From NCBI RefSeq assembly GCF_027625995.1, contig NZ_CP115396.1, forward strand, positions 4,030,501 through 4,094,500: 64,000 nt of DNA, in the 5' to 3' direction. Below are positions 37,070 to 52,557 of the stretch, piece after piece. Source of the stretch: Hymenobacter yonginensis (GTDB taxonomy: Bacteria; Bacteroidota; Bacteroidia; Cytophagales; Hymenobacteraceae). Position numbers and translations under genes: made by a program. The notes under the pieces were generated by a model that saw only the letters and a list, made by a program, of their open reading frames with translations, was not told where the DNA came from and searched no databases. How positions within the stretch are numbered: the stretch's first letter is position 1; every line of letters begins with the position of its first letter.

Positions 37070-38818
37070 TCAGCCTGCCACCGGCAGCGTGAAGCGGAAG
37101 GTGCTGCCGGTGCCCAGCTCGCTTTCCACCCACAGCTGCCCGCCCTGGCTGCCGATGAACTCGCGGGCAATGCTCAGGCCCAGGCCCGAGCCGCCGCGGT
37201 AGCCGGTTTTGTCGGGAATCTGCACGAAGCGCTGGAAGATTTTTTCCTGGTACTGGGGCGCAATGCCGGGGCCGTGGTCCTGCACCAGCACCTCCACCTG
37301 CTGCCCGCCCGGGGCCAGCGCCGCCCGAATGTGCAGCTGCCCCTGCTCGGGCGAATAGCGGATGCCGTTGGCCAGCAGGTTCAGTAGCACCCAGGTGGTT
37401 TTCTCGATGTCGGCGCGCACGGGGGGCAGCTCGGCTGGCACCTGGATGTCGAGGGTGAGCTGCTTGGGCTGGAGCTGGAGCTGAATGGTATCGGCGGCGA
37501 ACTGCACGATGTCGCGCACCTGGGTGGGCTGGAAGTTGAGCTGGATGTTGCCCGATTCCAGCCGCGACACGTCAATCAGCTCGCCCACCAGCTTCAGCAG
37601 CCGCTGGTTTTCCTGCTTGATGGTGGCCAGAATGCGCTGCTGCTCCTCGTTTACGGAGCCCACTTTGCCGTTCTGCAGCAGCTTCAGGCTGAAGTTGATG
37701 CTGGACAGCGGCGTTTTCAACTCATGCGACACCGTGGCCAGGAAGTTCGACTTGGCCTGGTCCAGCTTCTTGAACTCCGACACGTTGTGCAGGGTGAGGA
37801 TAGAGCCCACGAATTCCATCTTATCCAGCGCCTCGTTGAAGCTGATGACGTCGTTCACGGCCACGCGGTAGTACACTTCCTCGTCGTTGCGGGCCAGGGT
37901 GAGCACCGGGGCGGCCTCCTGGGGGCGCTGGGCGGCGGGCGTATCGAGGTGGCGCAGCAGCTCCCGGAACAGGTCGTTGTGGCGGGCTACTTCGTCGGCC
38001 GGCTGGCCCAGCAACCCGGCAGCCGGTTGGCCCAATAGCTCGGCCGCAACGGGGTTCACCAGCAGCACCCGGCGGTGCTCGTCCACCAGCAGCAGGCCCT
38101 CATCGAGGTTGTTCACGATGCTGGCGGCGCGGTTGCGCTCGGCCATCAACTGGGCCAGCGTGGAGGTACGGTAGTCCTGCAGCTGCACCAACATGCGGTT
38201 GAAGGCCCGCGCCACGGTGCCAAACTCGTCGTGGCTTTCCACCGGAATGGAGGACGAGTAATCCTGGTTGGTGGCGTTTTCGATGCTGGCCGTGAGCTTG
38301 CGCAGGCCCCCCACGGCCGCCTCGGGCACGCTCAGCACAAACAGCAACGAGGTCAGCAGGGCGAAGGTGAGCAACGCCAGCACGTAGCGTTGCTGCTGAG
38401 TGGCGGTGCGGTTGGCGGCTTCGTTTTTACGGGTGAGGGCCTGGGTGTTCAGGTCAATCATGCGGTAGGTGAGCGTGCGGAGCTGGGCGGCGTTAGCGGC
38501 CTGGGGCAGCCGCTCGTAGCGGGCCAGCGTGGCCGTGAGGCTATCCACCACCGCCTGCTCACCCACTTCCGTTACGTTGCCGGCCTCGCGGGTGAGGGCC
38601 TCCCGGAAGCTGGCCAACGCCACCGGCGGCGCGGTCTGCACGCTGTCCAGGGCGCGCAGCATGCGCTGGCCCAGCTCTACGGAGTAGAAGTTGTCCTGCA
38701 GCACGTTGCGCGCCGTGCGGTCGAGGCGGTTGAGCGAGAAAAGGGTAAACGCACTCACCCCCAGCAGCAGCAGCAGCATGGTGACGAAGGCCAGGGTGAT
38801 TTTGGTTTTGAGGTTCAT
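37070..38818 (-). CDS. HAMP-PAS sensor histidine kinase of the kdp cluster
   Basis: The 582-residue kinase has a first transmembrane helix (about 8-29), a periplasmic four-helix sensor (about 30-145), a second helix (about 148-170), a HAMP domain, a PAS domain (about 235-345), a HisKA dimerisation domain with SHELKTP (His near 366) and an HATPase_c domain with N, G1 (DHGPGI) and G2 (GGSGLGLSIA) boxes. It is the last gene of the potassium island. It could supply the kinase activity missing from the separate KdpD and drive the sigma-54 regulator at 51 kb; that link is inferred from position. Confidence 0.92.
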   Translation of the reverse strand: MNLKTKITLAFVTMLLLLLGVSAFTLFSLNRLDRTARNVLQDNFYSVELGQRMLRALDSVQTAPPVALASFREALTREAGNVTEVGEQAVVDSLTATLARYERLPQAANAAQLRTLTYRMIDLNTQALTRKNEAANRTATQQQRYVLALLTFALLTSLLFVLSVPEAAVGGLRKLTASIENATNQDYSSSIPVESHDEFGTVARAFNRMLVQLQDYRTSTLAQLMAERNRAASIVNNLDEGLLLVDEHRRVLLVNPVAAELLGQPAAGLLGQPADEVARHNDLFRELLRHLDTPAAQRPQEAAPVLTLARNDEEVYYRVAVNDVISFNEALDKMEFVGSILTLHNVSEFKKLDQAKSNFLATVSHELKTPLSSINFSLKLLQNGKVGSVNEEQQRILATIKQENQRLLKLVGELIDVSRLESGNIQLNFQPTQVRDIVQFAADTIQLQLQPKQLTLDIQVPAELPPVRADIEKTTWVLLNLLANGIRYSPEQGQLHIRAALAPGGQQVEVLVQDHGPGIAPQYQEKIFQRFVQIPDKTGYRGGSGLGLSIAREFIGSQGGQLWVESELGTGSTFRFTLPVAG

Positions 38819-38821
38819 GGG

Positions 38822-38964
38822 CAGTAGCGCGAAGCTCTGCTTCGCGTATGGTTGAGCAAGGGGCAGCGGGCTGGCGGGGTAGTAGCGCGAACTTTGCGGT
38901 TCGCGCCCCCGCGCCGTTCGGATATATATCGTTCTGGGGCGCGAACTACAAAGTTCGCGCTACT
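38822..38964. repeat. AGTAGCGCGAA-family repeats: a stub plus a full palindromic copy (copy 2)
   Basis: A short copy (38823-38847, AGTAGCGCGAAGCTCTGC..) precedes a full copy at 38881-38964, whose outer arms AGTAGCGCGAACTTTG and CAAAGTTCGCGCTACT pair. It lies between kdpD and the kinase gene. Confidence 0.88.
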
Positions 38965-38983
38965 GTCCGGGCGCAAAAGCAGA

Positions 38984-40147
38984 TCAGTAACTCACCAGAA
39001 ACACGTCCACATCCAGCGGGGAGCGGGCTACGGAGCGGATGAGGCGGCGCGTGACGCCGGGGCGCAGCAGGCGCTGCCACCAGCTTTTCTCGCTGGTGAC
39101 GCCGCAAATCAGCAGCGTGACGCCTTTTTCCTGGGCTACGCGCAGGATTTCGGGCACCGCGTCGGTGGCTTTCACGCGCAAAATCTGGCCGCCCAGCTCG
39201 GTGGTGAGCTGCAGGTTGTTGAGCAGGTGGCGCTGGGTGGCTAGGTTGATGCGGTCGGCCGATTCGCGGGGCGTCTGTACGTAGAGTACGGCCCAGGAGG
39301 CGGCCGAGAGGCGGTCGGCGAGGCGGCTGGTTTTGCGGATGATTTCCTTGGCTGCCGGGGCGTTGGCGTTGATGCAGGCCAGCAGGCGGTCCTGGTTGCG
39401 GCGCTCGGGCGCTACGGGCGCGGCCCCGCCGCCGTCGGTTTCAATCTGGCGGCTGATGAGGTTGGCGGTTTCGCGCACGGCCAGCTGGCGCAGCTGCAGC
39501 AGGTTTTCGGCCTGAAAGAAGTTCTGCAAAGCCGTGGGCACCTTGGCCGCATCGTAGATTTTGCCTTCTTCCAAGCGGGCGCGCAGCTCGCCCACGGTCA
39601 GGTCCACGTTCACTACTTCGTCGGCCTGCTTCAGTACCTGGTCGGGCACGCGCTCCGTCACGTCGGTGCCGGTGATGCGCAGTACCTGGTCGTGCAGGCT
39701 TTCGAGGTGCTGAATGTTGACGGCCGTGAGCACCGAAATACCGGCCCGCACCAGCTGCTCCACGTCCTGCCAGCGTTTCTCGTTTTCGGAGCCGGGCACG
39801 TTGGTGTGGGCCAGCTCATCCACCACCACCACCGAGGGCCGGCGCTGCAGAATGCCCTGCACATCCAGTTCCTCCAGCATGCGGCCCTTGTAGAAGATGT
39901 GCTTGCGCGGCACGGTGGGCAGGTCGCGCAGCTGGGCCACGGTGCCGGGGCGGCCGTGGGTTTCCACGTAGCCCAGCACCACATCCACGCCGTGGGCGCG
40001 CAGCTCGTGGGCCTCCTGCAGCAGGCGGTAGGTTTTGCCCACGCCGGCGGCCAGCCCCAGGTACACCTTCAGCCGCCCGCGCCGCCGCTGCTGCACTAGC
40101 CGCAGAAACCGCTCAGCCGATTGGTCGCGCTGTTGGTCGTCGTTCAT
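38984..40147 (-). CDS. kdpD: Stand-alone KdpD N-terminal/USP protein lacking a kinase domain
   Basis: The 387 residues match the cytosolic front part of KdpD only. They include the KdpD domain with Walker A GLAAGVGKTY (31-40) and Walker B PSVVVVDELAHTN near 104-116, ETHGRPGTVAQL, then a universal-stress-protein-like domain ending SPLDVDVFLVSY. The membrane helices and histidine kinase of E. coli KdpD are absent, and the protein ends cleanly. It sits beside kup and a complete HAMP-PAS kinase. It may sense K+ or c-di-AMP-like signals and act on the kinase in trans; that is inference. Confidence 0.9.
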   Translation of the reverse strand: MNDDQQRDQSAERFLRLVQQRRRGRLKVYLGLAAGVGKTYRLLQEAHELRAHGVDVVLGYVETHGRPGTVAQLRDLPTVPRKHIFYKGRMLEELDVQGILQRRPSVVVVDELAHTNVPGSENEKRWQDVEQLVRAGISVLTAVNIQHLESLHDQVLRITGTDVTERVPDQVLKQADEVVNVDLTVGELRARLEEGKIYDAAKVPTALQNFFQAENLLQLRQLAVRETANLISRQIETDGGGAAPVAPERRNQDRLLACINANAPAAKEIIRKTSRLADRLSAASWAVLYVQTPRESADRINLATQRHLLNNLQLTTELGGQILRVKATDAVPEILRVAQEKGVTLLICGVTSEKSWWQRLLRPGVTRRLIRSVARSPLDVDVFLVSY

Positions 40148-40319: not shown

Positions 40320-42269
40320 CTAGTCCCGCTGCAACTGCAGCTCGGGGCGGGCGGGCATGTGCAGGGGCACGTTTTCAATGACGAAGGAGCTGTTGTCGAG
40401 GCCGAAGCTTTCGGTTTCGGAGGCACCGAGGCGCTTCAGCCAGCCGTGCAGGCGCAGGGCCAGCCGCTGCCAGCCGCGCAGCAGGTACTCATAGGGCAAG
40501 GTTTTGTTGAGAATCACGAACTGGAAGTCGCCGGTAACGTCCTGGCCGCGCAGGCTTTCGTAGCGGCTGGTGATGTCCACTTCCCCGTTGCGCACCAGCT
40601 CCGACACCACCTGCCGGAACATGTAGTTGAGGGCGTGGTCGATGCGGAAACCCAAGTAGAAATCAATGCGCACCAACTCATTGGGCAGCACGTGCGTGAC
40701 GTGGTAGCGGCGGGTGTACGGGTCGTCGGTGGTGTGCACGTGGATGAGGTAGTACACATCGGCCCGCTTGGGGCGCTTCTTGAAGATGCTGTGGATGATG
40801 CCGTTTTCCACCTGCCGCGCGTCGTCCGACTTGGTGAGGTACACCAGGTGGGTGGCGTACTTGGGCACTGAGGCGTCGTTGCTGAGCTCCTGCAGCAGCG
40901 GCAGGTAATCGGCCAGCGGGGTGAATTCGGTGAGGTCGTTGCGCACGCGCTGGCCCACAATCCAGCTCAGCATCACCAGCAGAATCACCGCCCCCAGCAG
41001 CACCGAAAGCCAGCCGCCGTGGGTGAACTTGGCCAGGTTGGCCACCAGGTACGAGCCCTCGATGAGCACGTAGGTGCCAATCAGCAGCGCAATCCAGACC
41101 GGATTGACGCGGCGCATACGCAGGTAAAACGCCAGCAGGGCCGTGGTCATGAGCATGGTCACCGTCACGGCCAGCCCAAAGGCCGCCTCCATGTTGCCCG
41201 ACTCGCGGAAGTACAGCACCACGCCCACGCAGCCGGCGCACAGCAGCCAGTTCAGGCTCGGCACGTAGGCCTGCCCGCGCAGCTCGGTAGGGTAATCGAC
41301 CTTCACCTTGGGCCAGAAATGCAGGCGCAGCGCCTCAATCACCAGCGTAAACGAACCCGAAATGAGGGCCTGCGAGGCAATGATGGTCGCCAGCGTGCAC
41401 AGCCCAATAGCCGGCAGTAGCGCCCACTGCGGAATTAGGAGAAAAAACAGGTTCTGCTCGCCCAGCGGCGGGCCCAGGTGTTGCAGCAGCCACGCCCCTT
41501 GCCCCAGGTAGTTGAGCAGCAGGCAGGTTTTCACGAACGTCCACGACAGGTAGATGTTGGGCCGGCCCACGTGGCCCATGTCGGCGTACAGGGCCTCGGC
41601 GCCGGTGCTGCACAGGAAAATGGAGCCCAGCAGCCAGAACGCGCCCGGCACCTGCGTGACCATGTGCAGGGCGTAGTAGGGATTGAAGGCGCGCAGAATG
41701 CTCAGGTCCTGCCCCAGATGGTACACGCCCAGCACAGCCAGCATCGAGAAAAACACCGTCATGACGGGCCCGAACAGCTTGCCGATGATCTGGGTGCCGA
41801 ACTGCTGAAACGCAAACAGCGCCACCAGAATCCCGATGACGATGGGCACCGTGTTGAGGCCGGGCCGGAGGATGCGCAGCCCCTCAATGGCCGAGGCCAC
41901 CGAAATGGGCGGGGTAATGATGCCGTCGGCCAGCAGGGCGGCGGCCCCTACAATGGCTACCAGGTAGAGGCGGCGCACCGGTAGCCGCCGCAGCCGGGCG
42001 TACAGGGCCAGAATGCCACCCTCGCCGTGGTTGTCGGCGCGCAGGGCAATGAGCACGTACTTCACCGTGGTGAGCAGCGTGAGCGTCCAGATAACACAGG
42101 AAATGGTGCCCAGCACCACGTCCTCCGTCACGGGCCGGCTGGCAAACACCCCGCGCACCGTGTACAGCGGCGAGGTGCCAATGTCCCCGTACACAATGCC
42201 CAGGGCCACCAGCACCCCGGCCGGGGTGGCGCGCCGCAGCGCTGCCGAGGAAGAAGATGAAGTTGTCAT
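40320..42269 (-). CDS. kup: KUP-type potassium uptake protein
   Basis: A 649-residue low-affinity K+/H+ symporter. The N-terminus has the family motif ALGIVYGDIGTSPLYT near 22-37, and about twelve hydrophobic helices follow, with GEGGILALYA and STGAEALYADMGHVGRPNIYLSW. The C-terminal cytosolic domain (about 450-649) is complete. Its presence inside the kdp island pairs constitutive low-affinity uptake with the high-affinity Kdp pump. It begins 31 nt after the upstream HAMP-protein gene, so they are probably co-transcribed. Confidence 0.96.
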   Translation of the reverse strand: MTTSSSSSAALRRATPAGVLVALGIVYGDIGTSPLYTVRGVFASRPVTEDVVLGTISCVIWTLTLLTTVKYVLIALRADNHGEGGILALYARLRRLPVRRLYLVAIVGAAALLADGIITPPISVASAIEGLRILRPGLNTVPIVIGILVALFAFQQFGTQIIGKLFGPVMTVFFSMLAVLGVYHLGQDLSILRAFNPYYALHMVTQVPGAFWLLGSIFLCSTGAEALYADMGHVGRPNIYLSWTFVKTCLLLNYLGQGAWLLQHLGPPLGEQNLFFLLIPQWALLPAIGLCTLATIIASQALISGSFTLVIEALRLHFWPKVKVDYPTELRGQAYVPSLNWLLCAGCVGVVLYFRESGNMEAAFGLAVTVTMLMTTALLAFYLRMRRVNPVWIALLIGTYVLIEGSYLVANLAKFTHGGWLSVLLGAVILLVMLSWIVGQRVRNDLTEFTPLADYLPLLQELSNDASVPKYATHLVYLTKSDDARQVENGIIHSIFKKRPKRADVYYLIHVHTTDDPYTRRYHVTHVLPNELVRIDFYLGFRIDHALNYMFRQVVSELVRNGEVDITSRYESLRGQDVTGDFQFVILNKTLPYEYLLRGWQRLALRLHGWLKRLGASETESFGLDNSSFVIENVPLHMPARPELQLQRD

Positions 42270-42300: not shown

Positions 42301-43179
42301 TCAACCGGCCTGCCCGTTGGCCAGCTCATCGGCGGTGCGCTGGAGCTGCCGGGCCTGCCGCTGCAGCTGGGTGGCCAGGTGGCGGCGGCGGGTCAGGTCG
42401 TCGGCTGCATCGGGCGCGGAGCCGGGGCGCAGGTGGCTGGTTACTAAGTCGAGGGGGCCGCTGGAGTCGATGCGGGGCGTGCCGTCGGCGGTTTCGTAGC
42501 CTTCGAGGCGGCGGGCCATGTCGTTGAAGGCCTGGGCCACGGGCGCAAACTCGTCGTGGGCGCGCACGGGCAGGCGCTGGTCGTAGTGGCCCTCGGCTAC
42601 CCGCCGGATGCCGGCCGTCAGCTCCTCTACCGGCCGGGTGAGGTAATCAGGGAAGCTGAAGATAAAGGAAACCGTAGCCAGAATGCCCAGCGTAGCCAGC
42701 AGCCCCAGCGTGCCGATGGTGCGGTTGGCAATGCGGCGGGTGCGCAGGCTTTGCTGCTCAATGGCCCGCAGATTCAGGGTAGCCACCCGGCCCACCTGCC
42801 CGCGCACCTGTTGGTAGAGGCCGGCCGGCGCGGCGGCCTGGGCGGCGTACTGCCCAAACGAGGCCGCCAGCGAATCGGCCAGCTCCTGCTCGCCGGGCTC
42901 GGTGATGTTGCCCTGTTCGGCCCGCAGGCTGCGCCGGAAGGTGGCCTCGGCCCGGACTACTTCAGCAGCTGGCCCCGCCCGCCGCGCCTCCCGCACATCC
43001 GACAACGCATCGGACATGGCCCGGGCGTAGGCCACCGAGCGGTAGTTGTCCTGCAACGTAGCGGCCGAGCTGCGCGAGAGTTGGTAGAGGAAGTACGCCC
43101 CCACCCCGCTCAGCAGCAGAATAATCACGAACAGAAAGCTCAGGCCCAGCGTGAGGCGGGCTTTGATGGTACGGGCCAT
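42301..43179 (-). CDS. Kinase-less HAMP sensor protein, paralogue of the cluster's histidine kinase
   Basis: The 292-residue product (ATG at 43179, MARTIKARLTLGL) has two membrane helices (about 8-30 and 155-175) around a four-helix periplasmic sensor, then a HAMP domain (about 176-235) and a short coiled tail. It matches the N-terminal half of the kinase at 37070-38818 segment by segment (for example LQDN(Y/F).SV, the GN(I/V)TE.GEQ stretch and ESHDEFGTVARAFNRM versus RAHDEFAPVAQAFNDM). No PAS, HisKA or ATPase domain follows. It may be a modulator or competitor of the kinase. Confidence 0.85.
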   Translation of the reverse strand: MARTIKARLTLGLSFLFVIILLLSGVGAYFLYQLSRSSAATLQDNYRSVAYARAMSDALSDVREARRAGPAAEVVRAEATFRRSLRAEQGNITEPGEQELADSLAASFGQYAAQAAAPAGLYQQVRGQVGRVATLNLRAIEQQSLRTRRIANRTIGTLGLLATLGILATVSFIFSFPDYLTRPVEELTAGIRRVAEGHYDQRLPVRAHDEFAPVAQAFNDMARRLEGYETADGTPRIDSSGPLDLVTSHLRPGSAPDAADDLTRRRHLATQLQRQARQLQRTADELANGQAG

Positions 43180-43353
43180 GATGCGTGGTAAGCTAAAGGG
43201 TGAAACCATTGCCCAGCCGCCGAACGGCTGGTAGTGAGTACTGGGTAGTTAGTATTGAGTGTTTGGCATTTGTATCTTTAATAAAGCGCTGTCTTACAAA
43301 TAATTAACATTACTACTCTTTGAAGCTATTCAGGAAGTCGTAAGTAATCAACA

Positions 43354-43472: not shown

Positions 43473-44582
43473 CTAAAACGACAGCGCGATGCTGCTGGTG
43501 AGGTTGCCGTAGTTGCGGGTGGGGTTGCCGTTGCGGTCCGTCAGGAAGGGCTGGCGGCCGTGGAAGGTGCGGCCCTCTACCCGAAACGTCACGTTGCTGG
43601 TGGGCGCGTAGTCGAGGTTGAGCGAGGCGGCCTGCACCTTGAAATCGGTGGCGGCGGCTACCGGCGAAATGGAGCTGATGATGACGCCCCGGTCGGCGTT
43701 GTAGTACTCGGCGCGGGCGGCGGCGGTCCACTTATCGGCCAGCTTGTAGCGCACGAAGGCCGCGCCGGTGTGCCAGGTATCGGCCTTGCCGCCGCGTTGC
43801 TCGCTTTCCTGCTTGCCCACGTCGAACACCAGGGCCAGGCTGAGGCGGTCGGTGGCGGCGTAGCTCACGTAGAAATCGTGGAAGTAGCGGCGGCGGCGCA
43901 CCGAGTCCTGGGGCTGCTCGTTGCCGTAGAAGGTGCTGCTGTTGATGAGCAGCTTATCGGTGGGCTTCCACTGAATCTGGGTGCCCACAGCTTTAGCCTG
44001 GTTGTTTTCGCGGATGTTCTGCCAGCCGTTGAGTACCAGCCCGGTCAGCGTCAGCTTGGGGCTCACCTCGTAGGTCAGCCGCGCCCCGGCCTCGTAGTAC
44101 GGCGAGTTTTCAGCCATCAGGGAGCGGGTCAGCGTCCAGTTGTCCTTGCTGATAGCCGACTCAAACCCGATGTGCGAGCCGAAAATGCCCACGTCGAGCC
44201 AGGCTTTTTTGAAGGGGCGGAAACCCGCGTAGGCCTCGTAGAGGTGTTTGAGCACTTGGTCTTCAGCCGCGTAGTTGGCCGATACGTAGGTGCCCGCGTG
44301 CAGGCCCAGGGCCCCGCGCACCTGCCCATTGTCGTAGCGCAGACCGATAACGGCGTTGTTCACCGTAAACTCGTTCTGGCGGTTGTGCGAGTACAGGAAG
44401 CCGGGCCGCTGGTTGGTGGCCGCGTGCTTGAAATCATAGCCATAGTAGCCATCCACAAACCCGTAGGTAGTAAGCGGATTGGCCGGAGCCGCCGCAGCTG
44501 CCGTGGAATCGGGCGCGGTTTGGGCCATAGCAGCCGAAGCCGTGAGCAGTGCAGTAGCGGTAAAAAGAACCAGTGGTTTCAT
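43473..44582 (-). CDS. Outer-membrane porin (BBP2/OmpL-like) of the kdp cluster
   Basis: The ATG at 44582 gives a signal peptide (MKPLVLFTATALLTASAAMA) and a 369-residue product. The mature part begins with an Ala-rich linker and NPLTTYGFVDGYYGYDF. Then come paired amphipathic strands typical of an outer-membrane barrel, such as VIGLRYDNGQVRGALGLHAG, ARLTYEVSPKLTLTGLVLNGWQ, DFYVSYAATDRLSLALVFDVG. It ends on the Phe-terminal strand SSIALSF, the usual C-terminal recognition signal for barrel insertion. Its place just after kdpC suggests an outer-membrane route for K+ or other cations. The longer frame upstream of 44582 runs through repeats. Confidence 0.88.
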   Translation of the reverse strand: MKPLVLFTATALLTASAAMAQTAPDSTAAAAAPANPLTTYGFVDGYYGYDFKHAATNQRPGFLYSHNRQNEFTVNNAVIGLRYDNGQVRGALGLHAGTYVSANYAAEDQVLKHLYEAYAGFRPFKKAWLDVGIFGSHIGFESAISKDNWTLTRSLMAENSPYYEAGARLTYEVSPKLTLTGLVLNGWQNIRENNQAKAVGTQIQWKPTDKLLINSSTFYGNEQPQDSVRRRRYFHDFYVSYAATDRLSLALVFDVGKQESEQRGGKADTWHTGAAFVRYKLADKWTAAARAEYYNADRGVIISSISPVAAATDFKVQAASLNLDYAPTSNVTFRVEGRTFHGRQPFLTDRNGNPTRNYGNLTSSIALSF

Positions 44583-44603
44583 TGGGAGAGAAAGAATGCG
44601 GAG

Positions 44604-44662
44604 GACCTCACCCCCCGGCTCCCGGTTCGCTTGATGCGCGAAGCTTCGGGGAGAGGGGGAAC
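44604..44662. repeat. CCTCACCCCC-type repeat, copy 1
   Basis: CCTCACCCCCCGGCTCCC..GGGGAGAGGGGG is a decayed copy of the C/G-rich hairpin element seen three more times in the paa cluster. Confidence 0.5.
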
Positions 44663-44742
44663 CTGACGTTTTTTGATCAGGCGGGTGGCGGGGAAGTAAT
44701 ACGGAATTGAGGATGTAAAGCAACGAAAACGAGCCGGGAGGC

Positions 44743-44974: not shown

Positions 44975-45535
44975 CTAGCGGTTCTGCAGGGCGTCGAGGG
45001 CCACGTTCAGGCGCAGCACGTTCACCCGGTCGGGGCCGAAGGCGCTGTGCTGGGTGTGCTCCGTTACCAGGGCCTGCACCTTGGCGGCAGCGAGGTTGCG
45101 GGCTTTGGCCACGCGGGCTACCTGCACGGCGGCGGCGGCCGGCGAGAGGTGCGGGTCGAGGCCCGAGCCGGAGGCGGTGAGCAGCTCGGCCGGTACCTGG
45201 GCCTTGGTTACGCCGGGGTTCTGTACCAGAAACGTATCGAGGCGGGCCTGCACGGTGGCCAGGTAGTCGGGGTTGCTGGGGCCTTTGTTGGAGCCGGCCG
45301 AGCCGGCGGCGTTGTAATCCACGGCCGAAGGGCGGCCCTGGAAGTATTCGGGCCGGGTGAAGTTCTGGCCCACGTTATCGTAGCCTACCACGCGGCCCTT
45401 GTGGCTGATGGTTTCGCCCTGCCCGCCGGCCGGGGCCAGCTGGGCACCGGCCCACACCATCACGGGGTAAATTAGGCAGCAGATAACCAGCAGCACAAGG
45501 GTCAGGCGGAATGCGGGAAGCAGGTTCTGTTTCAT
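44975..45535 (-). CDS. kdpC: Potassium-transporting ATPase subunit C
   Basis: KdpC is the small single-span subunit that stabilises the KdpFABC high-affinity K+ pump. The 186-residue product starts at the ATG at 45535 (MKQNLLPAFRLTLVLLVICCLIYPVMVW), with one N-terminal helix. Conserved parts are QNFTRPEYFQGRPSAVDYNAAGSAGSN, LTASGSGLDPHLSPAAA and VNVLRLNVALD. The start used avoids the in-frame extension through a repeat. It follows kdpB, with a long palindrome in between. Confidence 0.95.
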   Translation of the reverse strand: MKQNLLPAFRLTLVLLVICCLIYPVMVWAGAQLAPAGGQGETISHKGRVVGYDNVGQNFTRPEYFQGRPSAVDYNAAGSAGSNKGPSNPDYLATVQARLDTFLVQNPGVTKAQVPAELLTASGSGLDPHLSPAAAAVQVARVAKARNLAAAKVQALVTEHTQHSAFGPDRVNVLRLNVALDALQNR

Positions 45536-45553
45536 GTTGATTTTATGTTGTTT

Positions 45554-45659
45554 GTCATGCTGAGCTTGCCGAAGCATCTCTACCGCTTCGTTGAGTTGGT
45601 ATTGAATACTACTGCGGTAGAGATGCTTCGACTTCGCCTCCGGCTCCGCTCAGCATGAC
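45554..45659. repeat. GTCATGCTGAGC-family palindrome, copy 2
   Basis: Arms around 45554-45590 (GTCATGCTGAGCTTGCCG..) and 45616-45659 pair with an insertion near the right end. It sits between kdpB and kdpC. Confidence 0.85.
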
Positions 45660-45690: not shown

Positions 45691-47739
45691 CTACAAAAAC
45701 AGCCCCACCACCAGGTCAATGACCTTGATGCCAATGAAGGGGACGATGACACCGCCCAGGCCGTACACCAGCAGGTTGCGGCGCAGCAGGGCCGAGGCCC
45801 CGATGGGCTTGTAGGACACCCCGCGCAGCGCCAGCGGCACCAGCAGCGGAATAATCACGGCGTTGAAAATCACGGCCGAGAGAATGGCCGACTGCGGCGA
45901 CTTCAGGCCCATGATGTTGAGCGCGCCCAGGGCCGGAATGGCCACCATGAACAGCGCGGGCACAATGGCGAAGTACTTGGCTACGTCGTTGGCAATGCTG
46001 AAGGTGGTGAGCGTGCCGCGCGTCATCAGCAGCTGCTTCCCAATTTCCACCACCTCAATGAGCTTGGTGGGGTCGTTGTCGAGGTCCACCATGTTGCCGG
46101 CCTCTTTGGCGGCCTGAGTGCCCGAGTTCATGGCCACTCCCACGTCGGCCTGGGCCAGGGCGGGGGCGTCGTTGGTGCCGTCGCCCATCATGGCCACCAG
46201 CTTGCCTTGCTGCTGCTCGCGGCGGATGTAGGTCATCTTATCCTCGGGCTTGGCCTCAGCAATGAAGTCATCCACGCCGGCTTTTTCGGCAATAAACTTG
46301 GCCGTGAGCGGGTTGTCGCCGGTTACCATCACGGTTTTGATGCCCATTTTGCGCAGGCGCTCAAACCGCTCCTGAATGCCGGGCTTGATGATGTCCTGCA
46401 GCTCCACCACGCCCAGCACCTGGTCGTTCTGGCTGACCACCAGCGGGGTGCCGCCGTTGCTGGCAATGGCCTCCACGCGCTGGGTGGTTTCCTGGGGGAA
46501 GGGCTGGTTGGCGCGGGCGGCCAGCTGCCGGATGGCGTCGGAAGCGCCCTTGCGCAGGCGGGTGCCGTCGGGCAGCGTCACGCCCGAGCTGCGGGTTTCG
46601 GCCGTGAACTTGATCAGCTCAGCGCCCTGCAGGCGGGTGCGCAGACCGGCCACGTCGGAGCGGCGGGTTTCGCCGGCCAGCTCCACAATGCTCTTGCCCT
46701 CGGGCGTTTCGTCGGTGAGCGAGGCCAGGGTGGCGGCCTCTACCATCTGAGCCTCCGTGATGCCGGGCGCGGGCCAGAAGTGGGTGGCTTTGCGGTTGCC
46801 GATGGTGATGGTGCCGGTTTTATCGAGCAGCAGCACGTCGATGTCGCCGGCCGTTTCCACGGCTTTGCCGCTTTTGGTGATGACGTTGGCCCGCAGGGCG
46901 CGGTCCATGCCCGCAATGCCGATGGCCGAGAGCAGCCCGCCGATGGTGGTCGGAATCAGGCACACAAACAGGGCAATGAAGGCCGAAATGGCAATGGGCG
47001 TGTTGGAGTACTCGGCAAACGGGGCCAGCGTCACGCACACCAGCACAAACACCAGCGTAAACCCGGCCAGCAGAATGGTAAGGGCAATTTCGTTGGGCGT
47101 TTTCTGCCGCGAAGCGCCTTCCACCAAGGCAATCATCTTGTCCAGAAACGACTCGCCAGGGGCCGTCGTCACCACCACCTTAATGCGGTCCGACAGCACC
47201 TTGGTCCCGCCCGTCACGCTGGACTTATCCCCGCCGGCCTCCCGAATCACCGGGGCCGACTCGCCCGTAATGGCCGACTCGTCAATGGTAGCCAGGCCCT
47301 CGATAATCTCCCCGTCGGTGGGGATGATTTCGCCGGCTTCCACCAGGAAAATCTGGCCTTTCTGGAGCTGGGAGGAGGAAACCGACGACTCCTGACCGTT
47401 GGCATCAAGCACGCGGGCGGGCGTTTCCTCGCGGGTTTTGCGCAGGCTTTCGGCCTGGGCCTTGCCGCGGGCTTCGGCAATGGCCTCGGCGAAATTGGCG
47501 AACAGCAACGTCAGGAACAGCACCACAAACACGGTGAAGTTGTAGCCGAACGAGCCCTGGGCGGCATCGGGCTTCACCAGCAGCCCCAGCGTCACGAGCA
47601 GCATCACCACCGTCCCGATTTCCACGGTGAACATCACCGGGTTGCGGAACATGATGCGCGGGTCTAGCTTCACGAACGCCTGTTTCACGGCCTCCGACAC
47701 CAGCGCGGGTTGAAAGAGAGATTGAGATTTAGTTGACAT
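45691..47739 (-). CDS. kdpB: Potassium-transporting ATPase ATP-binding subunit
   Basis: KdpB is the P-type ATPase subunit of the KdpFABC pump. The 682-residue product has the phosphorylation motif DKTGT near 305, the TGE(S) loop ([14 protein letters not shown] near 160), KxxPxxI-like GMAxL regions and the hinge [36 protein letters not shown]. Seven or so membrane helices are visible. It is separated from kdpA by a 600-bp stretch carrying an opposite-strand gene, which is unusual for a kdp operon. Confidence 0.97.
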
Positions 47740-48341: not shown

Positions 48342-50042
48342 CTAGTAGAGCGAGAAATGCTCGGCCAGCGGCCCCAACGCCAGGGCCGGGAAGAAGGCCA
48401 GGGCGGCAATGATGACGATTACGGCCAGTACCATCACCCCGAAGGTGGCCGTGTCGGCGGGCAGGGTGCCGGCGCTTTCGGGCACGTACTTCTTGCGGGC
48501 CAGCAGGCCGGCAATGGCGACCGGGCCCACGATGGGCAGGAAGCGGGCCAGCAGCAGCACTACGCCGGTGCTGATGTTCCACCAGGGCGTGTTGTCGCCG
48601 AGGCCCTCGAAGCCGGAGCCGTTGTTGGCCGAGGCGGAGGTGAACTCATACAGCATCTCGGAGAAGCCGTGGTAGCCGGGGTTGGCCAGCCAGCCGCTGT
48701 ACTCGGTGGGGTTGCCGGCGTAGAGGTGGGCCGTGAGGGCCGTGCCGGCCAGAATCAGCAGCGGGTGCAGCAGCGTCACGATGACGGCAATTTTCATCTC
48801 GCGGGCCTCAATTTTCTTGCCCAGCAGCTCGGGCGTGCGGCCCACCATCAGGCCGGCAATGAACACGGCAATAATCAGGTAGGCGAAGAAGTTGAGCAAA
48901 CCCACCCCGCAGCCGCCGTAGAAGGCGTTGGTCATCATGCCCAGCATCTGGCTCATGCCCGAAATCGGCATAAACGAGTCATGCATGGAGTTCACCGAGC
49001 CGCAGCTGATGATGGTGTTGGTGATGCTCCAGTAAGCCGAAGCCGCCGCCCCGAGGCGGATTTCCTTGCCCTCCATAGCCCCCAGCGCCTGGTCGACGCC
49101 GAGCTTGGCAATGGCGGGGTTGCCGTGCATCTCGTAGTACACCGTGGGGGCCAGCAGGGCCACAAAGCCCACCGTCATCACCCCGAAAATCATGTAGGCC
49201 AGCTTGCGGCGCTTCAGGTAGAAGCCCAGCGCAAACACCATGGCAATAGGGATAATCACCAGGGCAATGTTCTCGACGGCGTTGGTGATAAAGTTGGGGT
49301 TTTCGAGGGGGTGGGCCGAGTTGGCCCCGTAGAAACCGCCCCCGTTGGTGCCCAGCTCCTTGATAGCCACCATGGCGGCCACCGGCCCGCGGCTCACCGC
49401 CACCGAGTCGCCCTGCAAGGAAATCAGCTCCTGCTTGCCCTGCAGTGTCATGGGCGTGCCGTTGAAGGCCAGGATGAGGGCAATCAGCAGCGAACCGGGC
49501 AGCAGCAGGCGGGTGAGGCTCTTCACGAAGTAGTCGTAGAAGTTGCCCAGCTTCTCGGTGGTGCGCGTCTGGAGGGCGTTGAACACCACCACGGCCGCCG
49601 CAATACCAGTCGCGGCACTCACGAACTGCAGGAAGGTAATCACCACAATCTGGGAGAGATACGACAGGCCCGACTCGCCGGAATAGTGCTGCAGGTTGCA
49701 GTTCACCAGAAAGGAAATGGCCGTGTTGAAAGCCAGATCAGGCGACATCGAGGGGTTGCCGTCGGGGTTGAGCGGCAGGCTGCCCTGGGTGCACAGCACC
49801 AGCATGGCCAGCAGGAACCACACCAGGTTGATGGTGAGCAGCGCCACCATGTGCTGCTGCCACGTCATCTCGCGGCGGGCATCAATGCCCGAGAGCCGGT
49901 AGATGCCATTCTCGACGGGCCGCATGAAGTCGAGCAGGTTCTTTTCGCCCCGGAACACCCGGGCCAGATACGCGCCCAGCGGCAGGGCCAGCACCAGCGT
50001 GATGAGGTATATTCCGCCGATGCTGAGTAGTTCGTTGTTCAT
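48342..50042 (-). CDS. kdpA: Potassium-transporting ATPase subunit A
   Basis: KdpA is the channel-like subunit that selects K+. The ATG at 50042 (MNNELLSIGGIYLIT) gives 566 residues; the longer frame runs through an upstream repeat. Four selectivity-filter-like loops are visible (FLVNCNLQHYSGESGLS near 110, IKELGTNGGGFYGANSAHP near 215, NTIISCGSVNSMHDSF and TSASANNGSGFEG). About ten membrane helices are predicted. It follows kdpF, as in most kdp operons. Confidence 0.97.
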   Translation of the reverse strand: MNNELLSIGGIYLITLVLALPLGAYLARVFRGEKNLLDFMRPVENGIYRLSGIDARREMTWQQHMVALLTINLVWFLLAMLVLCTQGSLPLNPDGNPSMSPDLAFNTAISFLVNCNLQHYSGESGLSYLSQIVVITFLQFVSAATGIAAAVVVFNALQTRTTEKLGNFYDYFVKSLTRLLLPGSLLIALILAFNGTPMTLQGKQELISLQGDSVAVSRGPVAAMVAIKELGTNGGGFYGANSAHPLENPNFITNAVENIALVIIPIAMVFALGFYLKRRKLAYMIFGVMTVGFVALLAPTVYYEMHGNPAIAKLGVDQALGAMEGKEIRLGAAASAYWSITNTIISCGSVNSMHDSFMPISGMSQMLGMMTNAFYGGCGVGLLNFFAYLIIAVFIAGLMVGRTPELLGKKIEAREMKIAVIVTLLHPLLILAGTALTAHLYAGNPTEYSGWLANPGYHGFSEMLYEFTSASANNGSGFEGLGDNTPWWNISTGVVLLLARFLPIVGPVAIAGLLARKKYVPESAGTLPADTATFGVMVLAVIVIIAALAFFPALALGPLAEHFSLY

Positions 50043-50051
50043 CTTGGTTGA

Positions 50052-50128
50052 GTTGCCGGTTGCCGGTTGCCAGTTACCAGTTGTCAATCGTCGAACGACC
50101 TGACAACGGGCAACGGGTAACGGGCAAC
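50052..50128. repeat. Inverted GTTGCC/GGCAAC-type repeat between kdpF and kdpA
   Basis: GTTGCCGGTTGCCGGTTGCC..GTTGTCA is loosely mirrored by TGACAACGGGCAACGGGTAACGGGCAAC. It is related in style to the 36196-36250 repeat. Confidence 0.65.
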
Positions 50129-50132
50129 AGAA

Positions 50133-50213
50133 TTAGAATTTCTCCGGGCGCAGCAGCACGTAGCAGAGGTAGCCGAACGTGGCGAGGGAGAGGAAAAACA
50201 GGGTGACCATCAT
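50133..50213 (-). CDS. kdpF: KdpF small membrane subunit
   Basis: The 26-residue peptide MMVTLFFLSLATFGYL... ending LLRPEKF is a single hydrophobic helix with the C-terminal L(L/I)RPEKF signature typical of KdpF, which stabilises the Kdp complex. It lies just upstream of kdpA. It may start at the second of two ATG codons (50210). Confidence 0.92.
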   Translation of the reverse strand: MMVTLFFLSLATFGYLCYVLLRPEKF

Positions 50214-50345: not shown

Positions 50346-50699
50346 CTAGGGCAGCATGGTGGTGTGCGGATAGTGGTAAGTCTGGTAGAGGCGGCTGGGC
50401 ATAAGCTGACGGGCTAGCTGGTTGCCGTAAGTGCTGCCATCGAGGTGCAGGCAGTGCAGGTACACGTTTTCGATGGCGCGGGCCAGGTAGGCGTCGCCCT
50501 GGCGCAGCAGGCGGTCGGCCACCTCGAAGCAGCGTTTGAGCAGGGCCAGCTGGCCGGCCTCGGCGGCTTCGCGGGTGAAGGTGGCAAAGCAGCTCAGCTG
50601 CCGGTACAGGCTCTGGCGCGTGGCCGGCACCTGCAGTTCCGCCCCCAGTTCGGGGAAGCTTTCCAGCAATAGGGTGGCGGTTTCGGAAGAAGAAGTCAT
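50346..50699 (-). CDS. Small helical protein at the head of the kdp operon
   Basis: The 117-residue protein is predominantly helical and soluble (SETATLLLESFPELGAELQ, GQLALLKRCFEVADRLLRQGDAYLARAIENVYLHCLHLDG, QLMPSRLYQTYH). No membrane span or catalytic motif is seen. It may belong to a DUF7674-like family, but I am not sure. It is the first gene downstream of the regulator-to-operon gap and probably co-transcribed with the small peptide, kdpF and kdpA. A regulatory or assembly role is inference. Confidence 0.75.
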   Translation of the reverse strand: MTSSSETATLLLESFPELGAELQVPATRQSLYRQLSCFATFTREAAEAGQLALLKRCFEVADRLLRQGDAYLARAIENVYLHCLHLDGSTYGNQLARQLMPSRLYQTYHYPHTTMLP

Positions 50700-50890
50700 C
50701 TGACGAGATGAAAAGAAGTGGAACGGGTCCGTGAGTGAGCCGTGCGTCGGCGGGGCATGGCGCTGGGCTGGTTGTCAGGCACCCCAGCGCCGGCCCCGGT
50801 TCGGTCCGTTTGCCGAATCGACGAATGGCTCGGGCGGCTTCTTGCCAATCCAGGCCCACATCCGGCCAGTACCCACTATTTTCATCACAT

Positions 50891-50952: not shown

Positions 50953-50999
50953 AAACCGGGTCATTCTGACCCGGTGTGGCGGTCAGAATAACCCGGTTT
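50953..50999 (-). terminator. Terminator of the sigma-54 response regulator gene
   Basis: AAACCGGGTCATTCTGACC (50953-50971) pairs with 50981-50999 with one mismatch. On the minus strand a long T run follows. Confidence 0.85.
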
Positions 51000-51012: not shown

Positions 51013-51087
51013 TGTCCCAGGGCTTCAGCCCTGGGACGCGCAGGCAGCGTCGTTCAACGACGAGACGCAAGATGTTGCGTCTCTACA
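51013..51087. repeat. Hairpin plus GAGACGCAA-type repeat, copy 1
   Basis: GTCCCAGGGCTT/AGCCCTGGGAC (51013-51036) is a perfect hairpin. GAGACGCAAGATGTTGCGTCTC (51062-51083) is palindromic and reaches into the last codons of the regulator gene. Confidence 0.8.
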
Positions 51088-52435
51088 GCCCATACTCCTG
51101 AATCTTGCGGTAGAGCGTTTTGGTACCGATGCCGAGCTGGCGGGCGGCTTCCATCTTGTTGCCACCGGTATCGTGGAGCACCTGGCGGATCTGGCGCTTT
51201 TCCAGGGTGCGCAGGCTGTTGTCGGAGGCTTCGTCGGTGGTGGGGGCGGCGGGCAGGTAGTGGAACTCGGCGGGCAGGTCGTCGGTGGTGAGCGTGTCGC
51301 CATCGGCGAGGATGGCGGCGCGTTCCAGCACATTTTTCAGCTCCCGCACATTGCCACGCCAGTCGTGGCGGCGCAGCTGCTCCAGCACCTCGGGCTCCAG
51401 GCCGCGCAGGCGGCGGCGCAGCTTGCCTGCAAAGAATTGGAGGAAGTACTCAGCCAGCAGCGGCACGTCCTCGCGCCGCTCGTTCAGGCCCGGCACCGGC
51501 ACCGTAAACACGGCTAAGCGGTAGTACAAATCGGGCCGGAAGTGGCCGGCTTCGGCTTCCTGGCGCAGGTTGCGGTTAGTGGCGGCCACGATGCGCACGT
51601 TCACGCTGGTAGGGCGGGTGTCGCCGAGCTTGGTGAACTGCTGGGTTTCCAGCACCCGGAGGAACTTGGCCTGCACGTTCAGCTCCAGCTCCCCGATTTC
51701 GTCCAGAAACAAGGTGCCGCCGTTGGCTTCTTCCAGCAGACCCTTCTTATCCGTCAAAGCCCCCGTAAACGCGCCCTTCTTGTAACCAAACAGCTCCGAT
51801 TCCAGCAAATCCTTGGGAAAAGCCGAGCAGTTGACGGCCACAAACGGCTTGCTGCGGCGCGGACTGGCCTGGTGAATGGCCTGGGCAAACAGCTCTTTGC
51901 CCGCGCCGGTGGGGCCTTCCAGCAGCACAGTGCTGTCGGTGGGGGCGGCGCGCTCGGCCAGCTTGCGGGCCTGCAGCAGCGCCCCGGAGCGGCCAATCAT
52001 GCTGTCGAAGCTGTACTGAGCGCCTACTTTCTTTTCCAGGTCGGCCACGCGGCGCTGCAGGCGGGCTTTTTCGGCGGCGCGGTCCACTACCACTAGCAGC
52101 TGGTCATCGGAGTCGCCCTTGGTGAGGTAGTCGAAGGCGCCCTCCTTCATGGCCCGCACGCCGTCGGGAATGGTGCCGTAGGCGGTCATCAGAATGACTT
52201 CGGCCAGCGGAGCCACCTGCTTGTAGCGCGGCAGCAGGTCGAGGCCGTAGCCGTCGGGCAGCTTCACGTCGCTCAGAACCACCAGCACGTCCTCGGCGTA
52301 ATGGCGCAGCAGTTCCAGGCCGCGGCGGGCGTCGGGGGCCTGCAGCACGGTGTAGTCTTCCAGCTCCAGCACCCGGGCCAGCATCTGGCGCAGGCTGGTT
52401 TCGTCGTCGATGAGCAGCAGGGTTCCGTTGGGCAT
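51083..52435 (-). CDS. Sigma-54-dependent response regulator (NtrC family) of the kdp cluster
   Basis: The 450-residue product starts at the ATG at 52435 (MPNGTLLLIDDETS). It has a receiver domain with acidic pair D10-D11 and phospho-acceptor Asp56 (VVLSDVKLPDGYG), an AAA+ domain with Walker A EGPTGAGKE near 172, the sigma-54-contacting GAFTGA loop and Walker B GGTLFLDEIGEL, and a C-terminal Fis-type helix-turn-helix (GGNKMEAARQLGIGTKTLYRKI). In place of an OmpR-type KdpE, it likely drives kdp from a sigma-54 promoter. The kinase gene lies 12 kb away at the other end of the cluster. Confidence 0.95.
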   Translation of the reverse strand: MPNGTLLLIDDETSLRQMLARVLELEDYTVLQAPDARRGLELLRHYAEDVLVVLSDVKLPDGYGLDLLPRYKQVAPLAEVILMTAYGTIPDGVRAMKEGAFDYLTKGDSDDQLLVVVDRAAEKARLQRRVADLEKKVGAQYSFDSMIGRSGALLQARKLAERAAPTDSTVLLEGPTGAGKELFAQAIHQASPRRSKPFVAVNCSAFPKDLLESELFGYKKGAFTGALTDKKGLLEEANGGTLFLDEIGELELNVQAKFLRVLETQQFTKLGDTRPTSVNVRIVAATNRNLRQEAEAGHFRPDLYYRLAVFTVPVPGLNERREDVPLLAEYFLQFFAGKLRRRLRGLEPEVLEQLRRHDWRGNVRELKNVLERAAILADGDTLTTDDLPAEFHYLPAAPTTDEASDNSLRTLEKRQIRQVLHDTGGNKMEAARQLGIGTKTLYRKIQEYGL

Positions 52436-52557
52436 GGGCGGGCAGCAGTAGGAGGGAAGCGCCACGAAGGTAGCCGCCCGGCCGCTAGGCGCGAAACCAC
52501 CGGCAACTCGCACGGGCTCCGGAAAGCGCCGCCGCTACCGAAACCACCCAAAAACAG

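Follow-up and report, generated by a model that had tools for sequence, protein, structure and literature searches.

How the potassium pump genes kdpFABC are switched on when KdpD lacks its histidine-kinase half is the question raised by a 64,000-nucleotide stretch of the Hymenobacter yonginensis genome (GCF_027625995.1, contig NZ_CP115396.1, positions 4,030,501 to 4,094,500; hereafter the window). In the kdp cluster of the window, KdpD ends at 387 residues, a separate gene encodes a sensor histidine kinase, and a sigma-54 response regulator lies at the far end of kdpFABC. A sequence-only reading of the window had proposed that these three proteins form a potassium-sensing system that works in trans. 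Comparison with relatives supports the arrangement as real and conserved and lends support to a mechanism of another kind, in which the single KdpD of Escherichia coli is split into a small protein, probably the off-switch of the finished pump, and a kinase-regulator pair that probably switches the kdp genes on. This split arrangement recurs widely in Bacteroidota. The parts on which the argument turns are:

37070..38818, minus strand: sensor histidine kinase of 582 amino acids (aa), with a periplasmic helical sensor of ~130 aa between two membrane helices, then HAMP, PAS, HisKA, and HATPase_c
38984..40147, minus strand: short KdpD of 387 aa, with a KdpD domain (Walker A G31-K38, Walker B D110/E111) and a USP domain; predicted atypical serine kinase acting on KdpB
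50843..50858, minus strand: sigma-54-like -24/-12 element, GG-N10-GC with TTGGCA at -12, TGGGCCTGGATTGGCA
50959..50993, minus strand: tandem dyad of two half-matching palindromes 22 bp apart, the second being GGGTCAGAATGACCC; predicted enhancer for the regulator, with a fold that is also terminator-like
51083..52513, minus strand: NtrC-type response regulator with receiver, sigma-54 AAA domain with GAFTGA, and Fis-type helix-turn-helix (HTH; helix GIGTKTLYRK)

The sequence-only reading had described the kinase and short KdpD correctly in extent and domain content, as judged by open reading frames (ORFs) and Pfam, and had placed the NtrC-type regulator correctly. The association among the three genes was followed in 195 annotated loci (the window, 114 from the genomes of relatives, and 80 named loci), of which 26 were left out because their flanks were short and 2 lacked a KdpD frame; the named and other sets overlap partly, and close relatives are not independent. 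Among loci with full flanks, a histidine kinase was found within 500 bp after the short KdpD in 35/35 loci of the genus, 48/48 of the class/phylum set, and 50/52 named Bacteroidota loci, the remaining two having the kinase at 0.8 and 1.2 kb. The sigma-54 regulator was present inside the short-KdpD locus in 34/35, 45/48, and 42/52 of these sets, respectively, and for three of the four absences in the genus and class/phylum sets the gene lies just beyond the fetched stretch. At full-length KdpD loci, no sigma-54 regulator was found (0 of 17), and a KdpE-sized receiver gene follows KdpD in 19 of 20. Loci with a KdpD of intermediate length (n = 11) carry the sigma-54 regulator in nine cases and a sensor-type kinase upstream in eight. 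Because just 6 to 25 sigma-54 AAA family matches were detected per genome (20 genomes searched), a regulator next to kdp by chance would be rare, about 1% by our estimate. A canonical KdpDE, that is, a KdpD with kinase domains and an adjoining KdpE-type regulator, was not found at the window. Relatives had no second KdpD, with 43 matches, one in each positive genome, among the 61 genus genomes searched, and DUF4118 in 0 of 9; no search was aimed at KdpE.

The sensor profile (A3) was then used to find the sensor kinase in genus genomes, including second copies. Strong matches were obtained in nine of the 18 KdpD-negative genus genomes, and second copies were detected in several of the KdpD-positive ones. 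In the nine KdpD-negative genomes that keep the sensor kinase, the regulator adjoins in seven and Kup in eight. Of 20 paralogue stretches, 18 have the regulator adjacent to the sensor gene: a porin separates them in two, the regulator faces the sensor gene in one and follows it in two, and the kinase is divided between two frames in one. The other two show no regulator within the stretch. Kup follows the kinase in nine of the 20, and one more such module lies upstream of a kdp operon (L047; L numbers denote loci); eight of these ten Kup modules sit in genomes without KdpD. KdpA was present in 12/12 KdpD-positive genomes searched and intact in 0/18 KdpD-negative genus genomes, two of which retain fragments. 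In a regulator tree, a single clade (SH-aLRT 100) unites the 27 kdp regulators with 17 of the 19 paralogous ones and contains none of the 12 background regulators, while paralogues L234 and L235 fall among other phyla; the kinase tree groups likewise (SH-aLRT 97), both being quick trees with long background branches. The kinase and regulator are thus a self-standing two-component system that was duplicated as a pair, and KdpD goes with the pump. With the sensor kinase persisting in half of the 18 KdpD-negative genomes, the pair seems able to do without KdpD, which suggests two modules rather than an obligate three-part relay. As separate observations, the kdpA fragments of genome G002 (C126:60988-61951) lie ~12 kb from a regulator-kinase pair, and short KdpDs accompanied by sigma-54 regulators also occur outside Bacteroidota, at L212 and L216 (Planctomycetota) and L221 (Myxococcota), where the regulators cluster with those of family f9, outside the main clade.

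That both Kdp and Kup neighbor the pair points to K+ as the cue. Alternatively, KdpD and the kinase could be mere neighbors, with the pair responding to a cue other than K+, such as envelope stress, osmolarity, or a different ion, and kdp being one target. The HAMP, PAS, HisKA, and HATPase_c domains of the window kinase all score above the Pfam cut-off, and its sensor has four helices in a structure model and invariant residues N43, T83, E84, E87, and N124 (36 aligned rows); a fold comparison of the model was dominated by kinase cores and barely probed the sensor. The sensor profile weakly matches three KinB sequences of Pseudomonas (E 0.005 to 0.015), and KinB is a phosphate-binding sensor (PMC8534201). 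Moreover, a third paralogue group (L226, L228, and L244) lies near ABC-transporter or OmpA-family genes and not K+ genes, so that K+ as the signal is not proved. However, Kdp and Kup, which are unrelated systems for K+ uptake, are each accompanied by a copy of the pair and a similar DNA tandem (see below), and we regard a non-K+ cue as rather unlikely.

Other members of the sensor family were also observed. The sequence-only reading overlooked a sensor+HAMP protein (42301-43209) that shares 32% identity with the kinase over the sensor; the six sensor+HAMP proteins of genus loci form one clade, and this protein is possibly a decoy or partner of the kinase. The kdp kinases of L080, L181, and L186, two of them from Bacteroides records, are only 479 aa long; most of the periplasmic sensor is absent from the L080 kinase and, judging by length, from the other two.

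Turning to the short KdpD, the clean end at 387 residues that had been noted is no artifact, as the 43 hits of the genus lie in frames of 392-479 aa. The KdpD domain scores 303 bits over residues 22-229, and Usp scores 22.6 bits over residues 256-373, just below the Pfam cut-off of 24 bits; a profile built from 25 short KdpDs hits two solved structures, 2r8r (KdpD domain, 283 bits) and 7ji4 (KdpD-USP, 42 bits). Against the NCBIfam family NF038185 (KdpD_non_kinase), the window protein reaches 361 bits over nearly the whole profile, below the curated cut-off of 550, and is not assigned to it. The description of this KdpD as kinase-less holds for histidine-kinase domains, the only ones missing (no HisKA/HATPase in the domain scan), but not for the serine-kinase motifs, which are intact: Walker A (G-X5-GK-S/T) and the Walker B DE are each present in 159/160 short KdpDs, including that of the window, and the Walker residues are conserved across a 25-row alignment. 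In E. coli the adenine-holding pair is W39/R190; the window protein has a tyrosine after the Walker A GKT, and the rows shown in the alignment have tyrosine or phenylalanine at the tryptophan position. On the substrate side, TGES is retained in 180/182 KdpB-like genes, among them the window KdpB, whose TGES serine we take to be the equivalent of E. coli S162. According to the excerpted text of Silberberg 2024 (PMC11018627), the KdpD domain acts as an atypical serine kinase, using Walker A and B to phosphorylate KdpB at S162 and so inhibit it, this activity was demonstrated for the E. coli and Deinococcus geothermalis proteins, and short KdpD+USP forms exist, with Bacteroidota carrying mainly this form. 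From these motifs, the short KdpD probably acts as a serine kinase on KdpB in Bacteroidota. Two variants were seen: an internal TAG interrupts the KdpD frame of G046 (C1:2199740-2200363; L114), and the KdpD of L101 and L106 (family f9) carries a PTS EIIA-2 domain at its C-terminus (81 and 65 bits). The latter looks like a natural fusion of KdpD and a PtsN-like partner, given that the KdpD of E. coli is bound by PtsN (EIIA-Ntr; PMC8534201). In f9, diadenylate cyclase was found in 0/6 genomes.

Because diadenylate cyclase was found in 34/34 genomes of the window's genus, c-di-AMP is a possible shut-off cue there. The enzyme was found in 0/12 genomes of family f14, 0/6 of f10, and 1/6 of f7; the KdpDs of f14 and f10 members reach up to 98% in matches to named Flavobacterium and Chryseobacterium proteins, and the lack of a detected cyclase suggests that a signal other than c-di-AMP shuts the pump off in genomes of these types. 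With no cyclase found in 23/24 short-KdpD genomes of f7, f10, and f14, a c-di-AMP input of the D. geothermalis type is improbable in these families and some other input is required, which speaks for the relay of the sequence-only reading, with the short KdpD as a K+ reader acting in trans on the HAMP-PAS kinase, which in turn feeds the sigma-54 regulator. The relay is also favored by the KdpD-kinase gap, which outside the genus is narrower than any other gap measured in the cluster (median 5 bp; ≤4 bp in 46/112). However, this gap is 165 bp in the window (genus median 145 bp), KdpD tracks KdpA, and the kinase persists in half of the KdpD-negative genomes, mostly with its regulator adjoining; we consider the relay distinctly unlikely and retain from the three-part proposal the kinase and regulator as a pair. 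There is a slim chance that, in Bacteroidota without c-di-AMP, the short KdpD also has its serine kinase activity gated by the sensor kinase or by the sensor-HAMP copy. If so, one periplasmic sensor would turn the kdp genes on and free the finished pump, and the tandem kinase of E. coli would be rebuilt from separate proteins.

Candidate binding sites for the regulator were sought in 75 regulator-kdpA gaps, plus 45 in the named set, with shuffled sequences as background. Palindromes around TCA-N3-TGA were detected in 54/75 gaps (shuffles mean 5.9, max 11) and are often paired as a tandem 19-23 bp apart, with core and spacing kept across families. The tandem scored ≥11 of 12 in 37/75 gaps (shuffles mean 0.8, max 2) and in 18/45 of the named set (shuffles mean 0.65, max 3). 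Dyad density was 0.65 per kb in the gaps vs 0.045 per kb elsewhere in the same loci. Downstream of the dyad, TTGGCA was found in 34/51 dyad loci (shuffles mean 1.1, max 5), mostly 76-121 bp past it among the positions listed, with an earlier TGGCA at 33 in seven loci; RpoN was present in 13/13 genomes. A second dyad class, the full CTAGC-N5-GCTAG, occurs in 18/34 genus gaps (shuffles 0) and 0/41 other gaps, a shorter form also being counted in this class. Dyad and recognition helix switch together within the genus: GIGTKTLYRK was found in 15/15 regulators with the GGGTCA dyad and G[IV]A[LH]TTLYRK in 18/18 with the CTAGC dyad. L033, unclassed by the first dyad pattern, has GIGTKTLYRK; by a second pattern L033 is GGGTCA and L046 is unclassed. 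A similar tandem (score ≥10) lies between regulator and kinase in 7/8 Kup modules vs 1/8 other paralogue modules. Because gene order, trees, dyads, and the promoter-like element agree, the comparison supports the sensor kinase and sigma-54 regulator as a cognate pair for kdp.

Several observations weigh against the two-module reading. Ten of the 52 named loci and L081 show no regulator in the sequence examined, and two of the ten Kup modules show none in the stretch. A first promoter scan of the 450 bp before kdpA found little, the element lying further upstream; the strict combination of -24/-12 and dyad was found in just 14/75 gaps (shuffles mean 0.5, max 2); and the -12 half is degenerate across loci, the Flavobacterium-type -12 being TTTTGGC with the spacing one base long or the C lost. 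The TCA-type tandem scores below 11 in 38/75 gaps, of which 18 have the CTAGC dyad and the rest neither clearly. On an HTH-free tree, the CTAGC label requires two changes, one of them forced, so that the helix/dyad match amounts to one or two events; outside the genus, L052 and L069 pair a helix nearly identical to that of the CTAGC class (IALTTLYRK) with a CTTTCA-type dyad, and therefore the helix alone does not set the dyad, which slightly lowers our confidence. The c-di-AMP motif of Firmicutes KdpD-USP, (A/G/C)XSXSX2N(Y/F) (PMC8214093), was found in 0/160 short KdpDs. Lastly, a T-run follows the tandem in 24/37 kdp gaps, and the tandem may also end the regulator transcript. That the dyad is merely this terminator, with kdp constitutive or under an ordinary promoter, would fit the window tandem, which folds as a hairpin with a T-run, but is very improbable given the conserved core and spacing, the concerted change of dyad and helix, the enrichment in gaps, and the absence of a T-run from all seven Kup-module tandems.

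Overall, we think it likely that two modules replace the KdpDE of E. coli: (i) a transcription pair of kinase and sigma-54 regulator; and (ii) a KdpD shut-off. In the first, the sensor-HAMP-PAS kinase would respond to a cue in the periplasm or membrane, low K+ being the likeliest, and phosphorylate the NtrC-type regulator, which would bind the tandem dyad and drive sigma-54 RNA polymerase at the -24/-12 element. The resulting transcript would carry DUF7674, a microprotein, kdpFABC, a porin, Kup, KdpD, and the kinase itself, presumably as one operon with positive feedback. In the second, the short KdpD, as a Walker-type serine kinase, would respond to ample K+ by phosphorylating KdpB on its TGES serine. 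Both modules share the gene cluster and need not touch.

On the minus strand, the genes run in the order NtrC-type regulator, DUF7674, microprotein, KdpF, KdpA, KdpB, KdpC, BBP2 porin, sensor+HAMP protein, Kup, short KdpD, and sensor kinase, with a gap of 383 bp from the regulator gene to DUF7674. The remaining parts are:

40320..42269, minus strand: Kup potassium uptake protein
42301..43209, minus strand: sensor+HAMP protein without kinase domain, paralogue of the front half of the sensor kinase
43473..44723, minus strand: BBP2-type outer-membrane porin
44975..45577, minus strand: KdpC
45691..47739, minus strand: KdpB with TGES motif
48342..50087, minus strand: KdpA
50133..50213, minus strand: KdpF, 26 aa
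50226..50321, minus strand: one-helix microprotein of 31 aa, ahead of KdpF
50346..50699, minus strand: DUF7674 protein, 117 aa

The BBP2-type porin is a frequent component of the kdp operon in relatives, and Kup lies within it in some relatives only. The window KdpD and its H. telluris counterpart (L145) share 80% identity, and the kinase is 98% identical to that of G001, the nearest genome compared (29% of sampled 31-mers). The DUF7674 protein is the first gene past the promoter-like element; its family was above cut-off in 8/20 genomes, and at the kdp locus by coordinates in six. The 31-aa microprotein had no match in Pfam or NCBIfam at E 1, and a like ORF of 26-31 aa (similar composition, judged by eye) was present in 11 of the 12 regulator-kdpA gaps inspected.

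A literature search found no report of such kdp control for Bacteroidota, and related systems are known elsewhere. E. coli has the same pump and the same KdpD and USP domains, but its KdpD is a single tandem protein that includes membrane and GAF sensor domains, and its KdpE is OmpR-type. KinB/AlgB of Pseudomonas aeruginosa may share the helical type of periplasmic sensor, and AlgB is likewise NtrC-type; this system controls alginate, however, and the sequence match to the window sensor is weak. The nearest precedent is DVU3334 of Desulfovibrio vulgaris, which we take to be of the sigma-54 type and which supports the mechanism while lowering its novelty. In the excerpted 2011 account (PMC3333781), DVU3334 targets its own kdpFABC operon within DVU3334-3339, and the kinase appears split into a K+-sensor/UspA gene and a separate histidine kinase (HK) gene, as here; D. 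vulgaris belongs to another phylum, and two further regulators also target its kdp operon. The kdpD-N/SK/RR system of Deinococcus radiodurans, as excerpted from Dani 2017 (PMC5716572), also combines a truncated KdpD in the pump operon with a separate kinase and regulator, but the regulator is 23.9% identical to KdpE and the kinase is described as the KdpD C-terminal half. The short KdpD of D. geothermalis likewise consists of KdpD and USP only and retains Walker A and B (PMC11018627, excerpted text), whereas here the Firmicutes c-di-AMP motif is absent and diadenylate cyclase was not found in several families. How short-KdpD species turn kdpFABC on where neither a riboswitch nor a separate kinase was identified ("no separate HK was identified") is left open in that text, whereas a kinase and a sigma-54 regulator can be assigned here. 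The present comparison thus proposes what may switch kdp on in Bacteroidota without KdpE, with named genes and a predicted binding site and promoter, and the genus genomes with a sensor kinase beside Kup and no KdpD provide a natural control set.

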